Positions 9,736-34,166 of a stretch of DNA of 39,060 nt are shown here, piece by piece; the stretch's first letter is position 1; every line of letters starts with the position of its first letter. Position numbers and translations under genes: made by a program. The DNA lies in contig CAIUKP010000335.1 in NCBI GenBank assembly GCA_903899675.1, positions 1 to 39,060 of the forward strand, in the 5' to 3' direction. The notes beneath the pieces are model-generated. The model did not search any database. It was not told the origin of the DNA and saw nothing but the letters and a program-made list of their open reading frames with translations. The DNA comes from an uncultured Bacteroidota bacterium. Lineage in GTDB: Bacteria > Bacteroidota > Bacteroidia > Chitinophagales > Chitinophagaceae.

Positions 9736-9830
9736 GTTTTCATGCTTGATTAGGTATTAGTATCTGGTAAGGATACGCATGCGGTAGAAGCTATTATTGA
9801 TCAGCTTTGTTCAATCAACTACCTTATTCG

Positions 9831-10202
9831 ATGGATATACTTTTTAAGGAATATAGTTATGCCATTATTGGTGCCTGCATGGAAGTGCATAATCACCTAG
9901 GCACCGGATTTTTGGAGGTAGTGTATAAAGACGCTATTGAGATAGAGTTAATCAAAAGTGGGGTGTATTTTGAGCGAGAGAAAAAGTATGAAGTTTTTTA
10001 TAAGGGGAATAAATTGCTGCATTATTATATAGCTGATTTTGTGGTGGAGGAAACGGTGATTTTAGAAGTGAAAGCAGCGGCAGCGATTAGTCCTGTATTT
10101 ATTGCGCAAACAATTAATTATTTGAAAGTGTCGGGGAATAAACTGGGGTTACTGATAAACTTTGGGGAGGCTCAGTTGAGGGTTAAGAGATTGGTGTTAT
10201 AG
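9831..10202 (+). CDS. GxxExxY family protein (PD-(D/E)XK nuclease superfamily-like)
   Basis: MDILFKEYSYAIIGACMEVHNHLGTGFLEVVYKDAI contains GTGFLEVVY (GxxExxY); catalytic-type IADFVVEETVILEVKA; ends INFGEAQLRVKRLVL. Confidence 0.93.
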   Translation: MDILFKEYSYAIIGACMEVHNHLGTGFLEVVYKDAIEIELIKSGVYFEREKKYEVFYKGNKLLHYYIADFVVEETVILEVKAAAAISPVFIAQTINYLKVSGNKLGLLINFGEAQLRVKRLVL

Positions 10203-10215
10203 AAATGGATGAAGT

Positions 10216-10361
10216 CAAGGATGAAAGCCACGGATGGCACGGATGGAGGCACGGATGGGCACGGATGGAGCCACGGATGACACGGATGGGCACGGATGGG
10301 CACGGATGGAGCCACGGATGGAGCCACGGATGACACGGATGGAGCCACGGATGCACGGAAG
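10216..10361 (+). repeat. Short tandem/interspersed array: 12 perfect CACGGATG units plus degenerate edge units (CAAGGATG, CACGGAAG), spacers G/GG/A/GAGC/GAGG
   Basis: Perfect CACGGATG starts read at 10229, 10238, 10250, 10260, 10272, 10281, 10291, 10301, 10313, 10325, 10334, 10346; degenerate at 10216 and 10354. Confidence 0.97.
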
Positions 10362-10368
10362 GGGGGAG

Positions 10369-11217
10369 TTATTCTTCGATGCCTGCGAAGGTGTTGCCTT
10401 GGCTGGGGTCGCCGGAGTCGAAGCCTTTTTTAAACCAGTACATTCTTTGTTTAGATGTTCCGTGGGTGAATGCGTCGGGAACTACATAGCCTTTGCTTTG
10501 TTTTTGAAGCCGGTCGTCGCCGATGGCATTTGCGGCATTAAGGGCAGATTCTAAATCTCCGGGGTCGAGGATATCACGGAGCTTATTGGCGTGATGTGCC
10601 CAAACACCGGCGAGAAAGTCGGCCTGTAATTCGAGTTTTACGGAAAGCTGATTGTACTCTTTTTCGGAAAGTCTTTTTCTGGCACTATGAACTTTTTGTG
10701 AAGTGCCGTTAAGGGTTTGTAAGTGGTGACCTACTTCGTGGGCAATCACATAGGCCATAGCAAATTCACCGGGGGCGTTAAACTTTTGGGCAAGTTCGTC
10801 GAAGAAGGAAAGATCTATATATACTTTTCTATCACCGGGGCAATAAAAGGGGCCCGAAGCCGAACTGGCTGCACCACATCCGGATTGGGTTTGGCCAGAA
10901 AACATTACCAGTAAAGGCTTTTCGTAACTACTTCCTTGCGACTGATAAATTGAGTCCCAAACGGTTTCGGTTAGTCCTAATACCACTTTAGTAAAGGAAG
11001 CCAGTTTTTCTTCTTCTGCACTGCGGGGAGCCGATGTACTTTGCGTAGGGGCAGAATTTTGGAGCTGGTTCACAACTTGTGAGGGGTCGCCACCCATAAA
11101 AAGATAAATCAGTACAATAATAATTCCTCCGATTCCACCGCCCATGGCAATTCCTTTGCCGCCGCCGCCCCTTCTGTCTTCTACATTATCACTTTCTTTA
11201 TTACCTATCCAGCGCAT
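10369..11217 (-). CDS. YpfJ-type neutral zinc metallopeptidase
   Basis: MRWIGNKESDNVEDRRG, AYVIAHEVGHHLQTLNG zinc motif, LELQADFLAGVWAHH. Confidence 0.92.
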   Translation of the reverse strand: MRWIGNKESDNVEDRRGGGGKGIAMGGGIGGIIIVLIYLFMGGDPSQVVNQLQNSAPTQSTSAPRSAEEEKLASFTKVVLGLTETVWDSIYQSQGSSYEKPLLVMFSGQTQSGCGAASSASGPFYCPGDRKVYIDLSFFDELAQKFNAPGEFAMAYVIAHEVGHHLQTLNGTSQKVHSARKRLSEKEYNQLSVKLELQADFLAGVWAHHANKLRDILDPGDLESALNAANAIGDDRLQKQSKGYVVPDAFTHGTSKQRMYWFKKGFDSGDPSQGNTFAGIEE

Positions 11218-11556: not shown

Positions 11557-14500
11557 ATGAAAGGGAAGTGGTTATTTATTGTTATAAGTGTAATTGCTTA
11601 TGCACCCTTATTTGCCCAGATAAAAAATAATGGATCGCCTTTTTCATCCTGTGGTACAGATGGCTGGTACGAAAATGCACGTAAAGACACTGCTTTTGTC
11701 AGAAAAGAGCGCCAAACCAACGAGCAAATTCGAAATAGGATTCAGCAAAAACAATCCCTTACTTCGGGAAATACCTCAATTAAAAGTTTAGGTATTAAGC
11801 CTAAGCCCGGCGCTTCGCCATTTGCCAATATCTATGAAGTGCCGGTAGTTTTTCATATTGTGAGTGAAAATCCCGAGGCAATAACGGATGCAATGGTAAA
11901 AGCAGCGTTGGGTGAACTGAACGATGCATTTGCGCACCGGGGAGCCTATGGAGCTGACCCGCTGGGGGTAAGTTCGGATATTGAATTTTGCTTGGCCAAG
12001 ATCGCACCCGATGGTGGGAATACAACTGGAATCAACCGGATAAAATCATACCTCGAAGGGTTTGATAAAGACCTGGAAACAGGTAGATTGGCCGAATTGT
12101 CGGATTGGAATCACCAGGAGTATATTAATATTTGGGTGGTAGGAAATATTCGCGCAGAAAACCCTGCTACCTTTTTTGATTGTGGCAAATGGAATAGAAT
12201 TGGCGTGGGCGGATTTGGCGGACCTGGATTTGGGTTAGTAGTAGCCGGTTTGTCGGGTCCATTACTGGCGCATGAAATGGGGCATTACCTTACCCTATAT
12301 CATACTTTCGAGGGACAAAACTGCGTGAACAACGACTGTACGAAAGATGGCGATTTGGTTTGTGACACGCCGCCAGACAGAAGCATTAATTCGTCTCCTT
12401 GTAATAGTCCAGAAAATTCATGCCGAACAGATACCCTTTCGGGCTTCACAAAAGATCAACCGGATAATATTTCCAATTTTATGGATTATGGGAGTCCATG
12501 TCCATCGGTATTTACGTATGGACAAGGAGAAAGGATGCGTACTTTTTTAGAGATTTTTGGAGGCGGCAGTTTATTAGCTTCCAATAAATGTGATCCTCCC
12601 TGTATTGGAGTGCCGCAGGCAGAATTTGAGTATAGGAGTACGCCTTATCCCAAAGCGGGCGAAGTAATAAATTTTAATAATCTTACATCGGGCAATGATC
12701 CTTTTGAGTGGTTGATCAATGGGGTTTTAATTGGCACTACTAAAGATATAAATTATACTTTTCCGGTTGCAGGGGTTTATGAGTTGAGTTTGCGGGCATA
12801 TAATCCTGCGAGAACTTGTTATTCTACTTTTATTGCGAAAGTGAATGTGAATTGCGGAGTAGAAGCGCGGTTCTCTCCGGACAAACGAAAGGTTACCCAT
12901 TCAGGCTCTATTTACTCAGAGCCGGTAACCTTTACCAATTATTCTTATGGGGGCACATCTTTTCAATGGTATTTAACGGATAGTACGGGGAATAATTTTA
13001 AGCCGGTTTCTTCGAGCAGAGATTGGGTGTATTCATTTCCGTCACCTGGGCTATACCGAATAAAATTAGTTGCCACGGATGGAGCCTGTACGGATGAGTC
13101 TCCAATTTACTCGGTAAACGTGATGGATGCGCGAGTGGATGGAGCGGTGTATTTATATGCTGTAAACTGTTACAAAAATGATAGTATACGAATAGTGTTT
13201 GCCATTGCGAATAATGGATATGATTCTATCCCTGCAGGAACAGCCATAAAATTTTATGATAAAATTCCAGGCCTTCCCGGAGGCACTCAGTTGGCACCGG
13301 ATTTTGTGATTCCCAATGATATTTTAGGGAAATGCGGCAATGTTTATACGCATGTAGTGAAAGCCAGCAGAACTAAGCAAGATTCTCTGATGGCCATATT
13401 TGATGAGGCGAATCTTTTTAATGAATTAGACGAATCGAACAATGTGGCTTATCGAATCCGCTTCCAGCCAAAGCTATCGATAACACCAGCGGATACAATT
13501 GTTAACATCAATTCTGCCTTACCTGTTGTAGTAAAAAATCAGGCAAACGATCCACTGGCTTCGGTTGTATGGACGCCCGGAACCCTAGTAAACTGTGCCA
13601 GCTGTTTAAATCCAACAGTAACTGTAACTGATACCATGCGATTGGGATTAACACTTCAAACAATTTATGGGTGTGTGGATACTATCTCTGCCTATATAAA
13701 AGTGTTTCCGATTGATATGGACCTAAAAAAATCGGTGGTTAATTGTTATGCCACTGATACGATGATTGTGTCGTCTGATATTTATTTACTAAAGGGATAT
13801 ACTGCCCTCAAGCGACCTGTTCAAATGCAGTATTTTGATGATGACTCAACAGCAGGGGTAGGAAAGTTGATTGGTGTAGGCTGGATACCGGTTTCTACTG
13901 CGTTCCCTTCTGGGGTAGCAACCATCCGGCATTTGATTCCCCAAACCCAAACAGGAAAAGTATACAGCTACCTTAATGCAGCACAAACTGTATATGAGCC
14001 GAATATAAGTAACAACGCTATCAGTACTCCCTTTACTCCTTTTGCAATAAACATGACTACCAATCAGGTTAATTTATTGCGAAATGAAAAGATGCAGCTT
14101 TTTGTGATTAACCAGGGAGATACTTACAAAAGTATTCGTTGGTCGCCTTCGGGAGGGTTGTCGTGCGACACCTGCTGGAACCCAGTATTGTTTACATTAT
14201 CCAACCGAAATTATACTATCACAGGAACTAATCAGTTTTACTGTGTTGATACAGCAACCCTTTTGGTGAATGTGTATTATCAATCTCATATCGCAATGCC
14301 CAATACTTTTTCTCCGAATGGGGATGGGGTAAACGATTATTTTTATGTGATATCAGGAGAAACTGTGGCCAGGGTAAATCAGTTCCAGATTTTTAGCCGA
14401 TGGGGTGAGAAAGTTTTTGAAATCAGCAATATATTGCCAAATGATTATGTGGGTGGTTGGAATGGAATGTATAAAGGAAAGCCGGCACCTGCGGGTACAT

Positions 14501-33725: not shown

Positions 33726-34166
33726 AAAAAAGAGATTAATATGAAACGGCGGATAGCGAATAGAATCGTTTATATGCCGTGTTTCGGGTGGTTTGAATGA
33801 AAGGGAGCCCTACTTCTTTTATTGAAAGGATTTTTGGGCTGCCTTCTTACCGGCTGAAGTTGATAAGGGGGAATGCCCCATTTGCCGGTGAAAATACCGG
33901 TATGGTTTTCCGGAAAAACGGAAATAAGATTTTGTATAAGGGAAAGAAAATTACGAATAACCGAAATAAGGCGGGAAATACCCGGATGGATAAATGGATT
34001 CATGGGATTTGGATATGGGCCAATCAGTTGCTGAAAAATTCAGTTTCTGTTGAGAAGATAAAATTATTTGATTTCTTTGGTTGGAAGAGTATTTTAACAT
34101 TTTGTATAAGAATGCATAATTTCTGTATTTTCTTCCCTTTTTTTGTAAAATTGTAGTCGTTCACCA

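Follow-up and report, generated by a model that had tools for sequence, protein, structure and literature searches.

GxxExxY nuclease-like genes and the short repeated words beside them: evidence for a gene-word unit in bacteria

Genes of the GxxExxY family and the short repeated DNA words that lie beside them very likely constitute one unit. The locus considered here belongs to an uncultured Chitinophagaceae bacterium (Bacteroidota) and lies in a stretch of 39,060 nucleotides (contig CAIUKP010000335.1, hereafter the window), in which a GxxExxY gene is followed by an array of octamers. A sequence-only reading of this locus had proposed that gene and array are a single functional or selfish unit, and this core inference was supported in every test run. 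To our knowledge, no function has been established for GxxExxY proteins. The open-access literature searched contains passing annotations only and no description of their function or repeats (subscription papers and preprints were outside the scope), and Rfam gave no family match at the GxxExxY genes examined. The gene-word unit is apparently undescribed, a novelty limited to the open-access literature and Rfam.

The window locus and its close relatives

The features of the locus are the following:

9831..10202, + strand: intact GxxExxY gene of clade 2 (123 aa plus stop), encoding a small PD-(D/E)XK nuclease-like protein that matches TIGR04256 (E=1.4e-40; 138 bits vs a curated cut-off of 35) and PF13366 PDDEXK_3 (E=6e-37; 127 bits vs a cut-off of 22)
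9915..10109, + strand: putative active site, from residue conservation in homologues (codons E29 9915-9917, D69 10035-10037, E79 10065-10067, K81 10071-10073, Q93 10107-10109)
10227..10244, + strand: GCCACGGATGGCACGGAT, which resembles the clade-2 half-site GCCACNNATNCACNNAT except for a gap of two bases
10229..10353, + strand: direct array of 12 exact CACGGATG words, mean spacing 10.64 bp
10354-10361, + strand: degenerate last array copy CACGGAAG, so that the array as a feature is 10229..10361
10369..11217, - strand: convergent YpfJ-type zinc peptidase gene (NF050010, E=9e-114; PF04228)

Membership of the GxxExxY family is met, both profiles scoring above their curated cut-offs, and the protein has no other Pfam or NCBIfam match. 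An alternative in-frame TTG start is possible at 9807. The AlphaFold2 model is a confident prediction (pLDDT 94.5) whose Foldseek neighbours are Cas4 (SSO0001), LHK-Exo and lambda exonuclease. Among 24 diverse homologues, E29, D69, E79 and K81 are invariant and Q93 is nearly so. The core fold and the D...ExK residues of the PD-(D/E)XK superfamily are thus present, and E29, D69, E79-x-K81 and Q93 would fit a RecB/Cas4-type active site, an inference in the absence of any demonstrated nuclease activity. In PADLOC, no defence family fits above a weak Cas4-like similarity; a clade-3 member gives a weak match to the Cas4b profile (E=9e-5). A sequence search of the PDB found no clear relative (best E=0.64), and no strand-transfer domain is recognisable in the protein. 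As a separate observation, clade-3 matches occur inside open frames of 883-896 codons (G223:C17:474848, G086:C9:91047, G097:C22:338280, G113:C1:72357), which are possible fusions with a large protein.

Most of what had been read at this locus held. The 12 exact octamers lie on the same strand as the gene, a strand-aware exact search found no CACGGATG copy on the - strand of the array, as claimed, and the array occupies the gap as far as the 3' end of the ypfJ-like gene (10369), which bounds it and is a neighbour outside the gene-word unit. The proposed distance of 13 nt between stop codon and array failed: the stop is 10200-10202 and the first exact octamer starts 26 nt past it. The gap holds degenerate copies only (ATGGATG, AAGGATG), which are the likely source of the shorter figure.

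The words of the array, 7-8 bp long and separated by gaps of 1-5 bp, are on a single strand and are not self-complementary. Their spacings are 9, 12, 10, 12, 9, 10, 10, 12, 12, 9 and 12 bp; since these are not all multiples of three, the array is not a coding repeat. Three looser GCCACNNATNCACNNAT-like half-sites, all with two-base gaps, begin at 10227, 10270 and 10323. Tandem Repeats Finder detects the array. The thirteenth CACGGATG copy of the window is isolated, at 13074; dinucleotide shuffles of the whole window gave 0.85 expected copies in all, and none of 100 shuffles reached 13. A weak 21-bp tandem repeat elsewhere in the window (33913-33970; 2.8 copies, 67% matches) is unrelated to the array.

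The source genome (2.79 Mb in 413 contigs) contains one TIGR04256 gene, yet two dense CACGGATG arrays. Dense pairs of the word occur in two places only, the window array and contig C118:1906-2005, the latter adjoining an FKBP-like gene (named by reading) with no GxxExxY gene nearby. The comparison of array lengths proposed by the sequence-only reading gave 7, 12 and 29 exact words among close relatives. Genome G036 (locus L196), whose GxxExxY protein is 95% identical, has 7 words in the same place, or 8 with a variant, and locus L195, with a protein 93% identical, has 29 over 346 bp, including higher-order duplications. G036 also has the gene-less second array at the orthologous position, in a region of 3 kb with 92% nucleotide identity; it contains 7 words there vs 10 in the source genome. 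Therefore, array length is variable while position is kept. Same-genus genomes with ypfJ in other contexts have no array there, and a triple CACGGAT array is absent from the other same-genus genomes among the 36 first searched.

Word brackets, their orientation and their phase

Reading of the flanking sequence at 30 GxxExxY loci of the order and 60 of the phylum showed a bracket of short repeated words around nearly every gene, in most cases with the words in forward orientation on the upstream side and as reverse complements on the downstream side. Across bacteria the bracket words are heptamers of the form CRCNNAK, often inverted between the two sides. Exact 11-mer repeat counts were dropped as the only statistic, as they miss degenerate words; arm alignment, k-mer enrichment and word chains were used instead. 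Inverted-arm alignment scores separate GxxExxY loci from control genes (p=4.6e-20). Upstream, 25/60 flanks contain CACAGAG (79-fold enriched); downstream, 24/60 contain its complement (87-fold). Occurrences in the opposite orientation number 4 and 2, respectively. Over the two arm sets, 334 CRCNRAK words point inward vs 75 outward and about 28 expected, and 59 of the 60 loci have at least two inward words in one arm. The spacing between words has its main peak at 9-11 bp and a second one at 20-21.

Because the word pattern had been derived from these first loci, a held-out set of 80 loci was fetched independently from named genomes. A word chain was present within 200 nt in 79 of them vs 30 of 271 control genes (11%; p=4e-52). 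For loci from genomes mostly outside Bacteroidota the pattern was found in 22/29; when read by eye, Bacteroides, Bernardetia, Gemmatirosa and Sphingomonas plasmid copies show it clearly, and Treponema and Fusobacteria copies show it weakly.

The sequence-only reading would have been refuted by a lack of octamer enrichment near homologues. This was not the case, the words being about 80- to 130-fold enriched beside GxxExxY homologues, with agreement from the held-out set, and its unverified suggestion of similar repeats beside other GxxExxY genes was correct. Its description needs widening in three respects: the unit word is a heptamer class that differs between protein clades and not one octamer, the bracket is usually two-sided and inverted, and gene-less arrays exist too, one of them in the source genome. 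The window unit has no upstream arm and its downstream arm is expanded into the 12-word direct array, a one-sided variant of the usual two-sided bracket.

The 32 clade-1 loci with both arms allow arms to be compared within and between loci. The share of exact words common to both arms of one locus is 0.68 vs 0.33 after shuffling, and spacer identity is equal within and between loci (0.706 vs 0.705). Words are kept and base pairing along the arms is not; a full-length RNA hairpin between the arms is unsupported by spacer identity. Kept words, unkept spacers and a phase of about 10 bp therefore favour words that are recognised as DNA, recognition as RNA not being excluded. With regard to the roles suggested earlier for the repeats (binding site, cleavage site or RNA), word recognition is favoured over long-range pairing because words are conserved and spacers are not, and there are no binding or cutting data.

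Word class, site occupancy and spread

The class of the word follows the clade of the protein. Clade 1 (LGPGLLESAY) has G-ending words, CRCNRAG. Clade 2, that of the window (MEVHNxLGxGFLEVVYKDAL), has T-ending words, CRCNNAT, commonly as GCCACGAATGCACGAAT...ATTCGTGCATTCGTGGC; the half-site GCCACNNATNCACNNAT is present exactly in 62/80 of its loci, its ends often form hairpins, and some of its members have palindromic word pairs. Clade 3 (GNGFQEVIYQRAL) has GATT-type words with a TGTCTGAA end. Called word classes agree with the clade in 69/69 cases for clade 2, 18/18 for clade 3 and 47/53 for clade 1, one of the clade-1 exceptions being L195, misfiled from clade 2; about a quarter of the loci remained uncalled by the strict word-class score. 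A tree of 196 proteins, 149 of them labelled with a word class, requires only 5 changes of that label; on it the clade-1 exceptions with T-words group with L144 in one supported clade. Five genomes with two clades each carry clade-correct words at both copies. The link between word and clade could possibly reflect common inheritance rather than recognition; it persists across phyla.

One Flavobacterium site has alternative occupants. Between a methionine aminopeptidase gene and a methyltransferase-like gene (both named by reading), some species have an empty gap of 21-25 nt or a stop/start overlap (TAATG), and others carry a unit, either of clade 1 with RAG words or of clade 2 with NAT words; in still others there are decayed remnants or another repeat. 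Clade and word class agree at this site (12:0 and 0:6, p=5e-5). As the word changes with the occupant at one site, word identity is separable from genomic position. This one site thus has both occupied and empty alleles, a criterion of transposable elements. At two gene-less loci (L276, L285) the site is filled by a different inverted repeat, CTACAAGGTTTTGAAAACCTTGCAGG, adjoining a short remnant of the left GxxExxY arm.

The family was found in 196/395 Bacteroidota genomes, with 0 to 11 copies per genome, by a scan seeded with the window's clade only and not with an all-clade profile, and it is also present in several other phyla. It is mostly chromosomal and almost absent from plasmids, and one query of a phage collection, at the sensitivity used, did not find it. 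The gene sits alone between unrelated housekeeping genes, and orthologous sites are often inherited vertically. Near-identical dispersed copies were not found: the five copies of G294 are 66-74% identical at best, and an identical pair in G253 was rejected as an assembly overlap. Where copies from a single genome were compared, they proved old and diverged, and no recent dispersal was seen. At two loci (L408, L409) gene and bracket are duplicated together in tandem; the duplicates are 94% and 92% identical, and word brackets lie at the junctions between them. At another locus a Flavo-1 RNA (RF01705; L158:11978-12120) lies about 6 kb from the GxxExxY gene, unrelated as far as seen.

Gene-less word arrays are dispersed in some genomes. 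G209 has arrays (10 matches) without a detectable GxxExxY gene, and in G243 the only GxxExxY gene belongs to another clade. Dispersed CACGGATT-type arrays also occur inside longer repeats at L173 and L174 (G209, G327). The presence of a CACGGAT array was discarded as a marker of the gene, being weak (14 genomes with an array, 9 of them with the gene); a gene excess is seen only in genomes with at least two such arrays (7/8, one-sided p=0.03). That the units are mobile is an inference drawn from dispersed arrays and from sites that are either empty or occupied; movement has not been observed, and no target-site duplication has been demonstrated.

Known systems and possible explanations

Several known systems share part of this architecture. 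Like REP/RAYT elements, GxxExxY units have a small gene flanked by short repeats that are also dispersed without the gene, mostly in intergenic positions (PMC3733652). However, REP/RAYT elements have GTAG- and CGTC-tagged REPs (PMC3733652) and a Y1 HUH transposase, whereas the GxxExxY protein is an unrelated PD-(D/E)XK nuclease and its words are non-palindromic heptamers in phased chains, without such tags, whose class changes with the protein clade; at the window locus there is neither a Y1 HUH transposase beside the repeats nor any palindromic unit. A small ORF bracketed by inverted arms is also characteristic of the 23S rRNA intervening sequences that encode S23/IVP proteins (PMC4990558; PF05635) and that have been described as a selfish element (PMC4990558), but the S23/IVP protein is an unrelated four-helix bundle, and GxxExxY sites are intergenic, not inside rRNA, with arms that conserve words and not full complementarity. 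The window unit is intergenic without an Rfam match, and clade-1 arms are not complementary outside the words. About half of the S23/IVP loci outside rRNA have inverted arms of their own phrases, and none of 30 S23 loci has GxxExxY words. S23/IVP genes (PF05635) at L342-L371, L149:1989-2363 and L153:7258-7665 are often bracketed by such inverted phrases, for example CAGTAGTCAGTAGC and TACAAAGATTCAAAG. This suggests that both kinds of unit share an architecture.

Cas4/RecB-type nucleases have the same fold and catalytic residue pattern, but the four-cysteine iron-sulfur set of Cas4 is missing (the window protein has one cysteine, C16), and GxxExxY genes stand alone, without CRISPR repeats and unique spacers; the window array does not meet the CRISPR definition of identical repeats with unique spacers of similar length. 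Free-standing homing endonucleases are likewise small stand-alone nuclease genes, with one intergenic site repeatedly occupied; they differ from the GxxExxY unit, which is flanked by its own word array, and no recognition site was identified at the empty allele.

Our preferred reading, with a probability of roughly 0.5, is a selfish or semi-autonomous unit made up of gene and words, in which the nuclease recognises the words of its own unit; that it recognises or cuts them, and that the unit moves, is inferred throughout. The small Cas4/RecB-like nuclease would bind the words of its own clade, probably as several copies on one helix face, the words lying about one helical turn of DNA apart. 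It would then nick or cut at word arrays, after which host repair or recombination would spread, expand or lose them and, rarely, move the whole bracketed gene into an intergenic gap. The mode of action of such a unit would resemble that of REP/RAYT or homing-type elements, the enzyme being unrelated. This reading is favoured because of the enrichment, the inward orientation, the held-out test, the word-clade match, the Flavobacterium site swap, the two-clade genomes, the arm words shared without spacers, the 9-11 bp spacing, the copy-number variation, the gene-less arrays, and the nuclease fold with its conserved residues. It is weakened by the lack of biochemical evidence of binding or cutting, of recent dispersal, of a demonstrated target-site duplication and of a strand-transfer domain, as well as by vertical inheritance, near absence from plasmids, failure of one query to find the family in phages, and the arrays of G209 without a gene and of G243 with a gene of another clade.

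Three other explanations can be considered. The words could be a cis operator or self-mark of a chromosomal nuclease for defence or DNA repair, inhibiting or titrating the enzyme or marking self DNA. The conserved catalytic residues, the fold close to Cas4, the mostly chromosomal presence in half of the Bacteroidota genomes and the maintenance of units at orthologous sites over many species speak for such a benefit to the host, but no PADLOC defence family fits beyond weak Cas4-like similarity, the gene is alone among unrelated housekeeping genes, empty sites are common and copy number ranges from 0 to 11, so that we regard it as unlikely. We are equally doubtful of a role at the RNA level, in which inverted words on either side of the ORF would pair or bind protein in a transcript, as in 23S rRNA intervening sequences, the protein processing or stabilising its own RNA. 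Arms are inverted in most clade-1 loci, clade-2 ends are often hairpins, many units lie between co-directional genes, and inverted arms are likewise found at S23/IVP genes, which are known from rRNA intervening sequences. However, spacers are no more complementary inside one locus than across different loci, the window and L195 arrays are one-sided and direct and cannot self-pair, helical phasing suggests double-stranded DNA, and Rfam gives no family match. Passive, microsatellite-like intergenic tracts with an incidental gene association would be compatible with the tandem expansion and higher-order duplication of the window and L195 arrays. This last explanation is already disfavoured and very improbable, as words occur at nearly every GxxExxY locus in many phyla, their orientation, phasing and clade-specific class are conserved, and at the same site the word changes with the occupant.

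A bolder form of the selfish-unit reading, possible and wholly inferred, is that each clade has an evolvable word code, its nuclease reading its own heptamer on one helix face, and that cutting drives the copying, expansion and insertion of arrays and of the gene itself into intergenic gaps. If true, these units would together form a class of selfish elements that spans the bacteria and relies on a Cas4-like enzyme. The link to word arrays gives the GxxExxY family a testable substrate, and the gene-word unit explains one class of short repeats in intergenic DNA (CACAGAG, CGCAAAG, CACGAAT and CACGGAT types). If the protein reads the word code, the family would offer a natural range of compact nucleases that differ in specificity. 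As S23/IVP genes apparently have the same architecture with other words, small mobile genes built in this way may be a general phenomenon.
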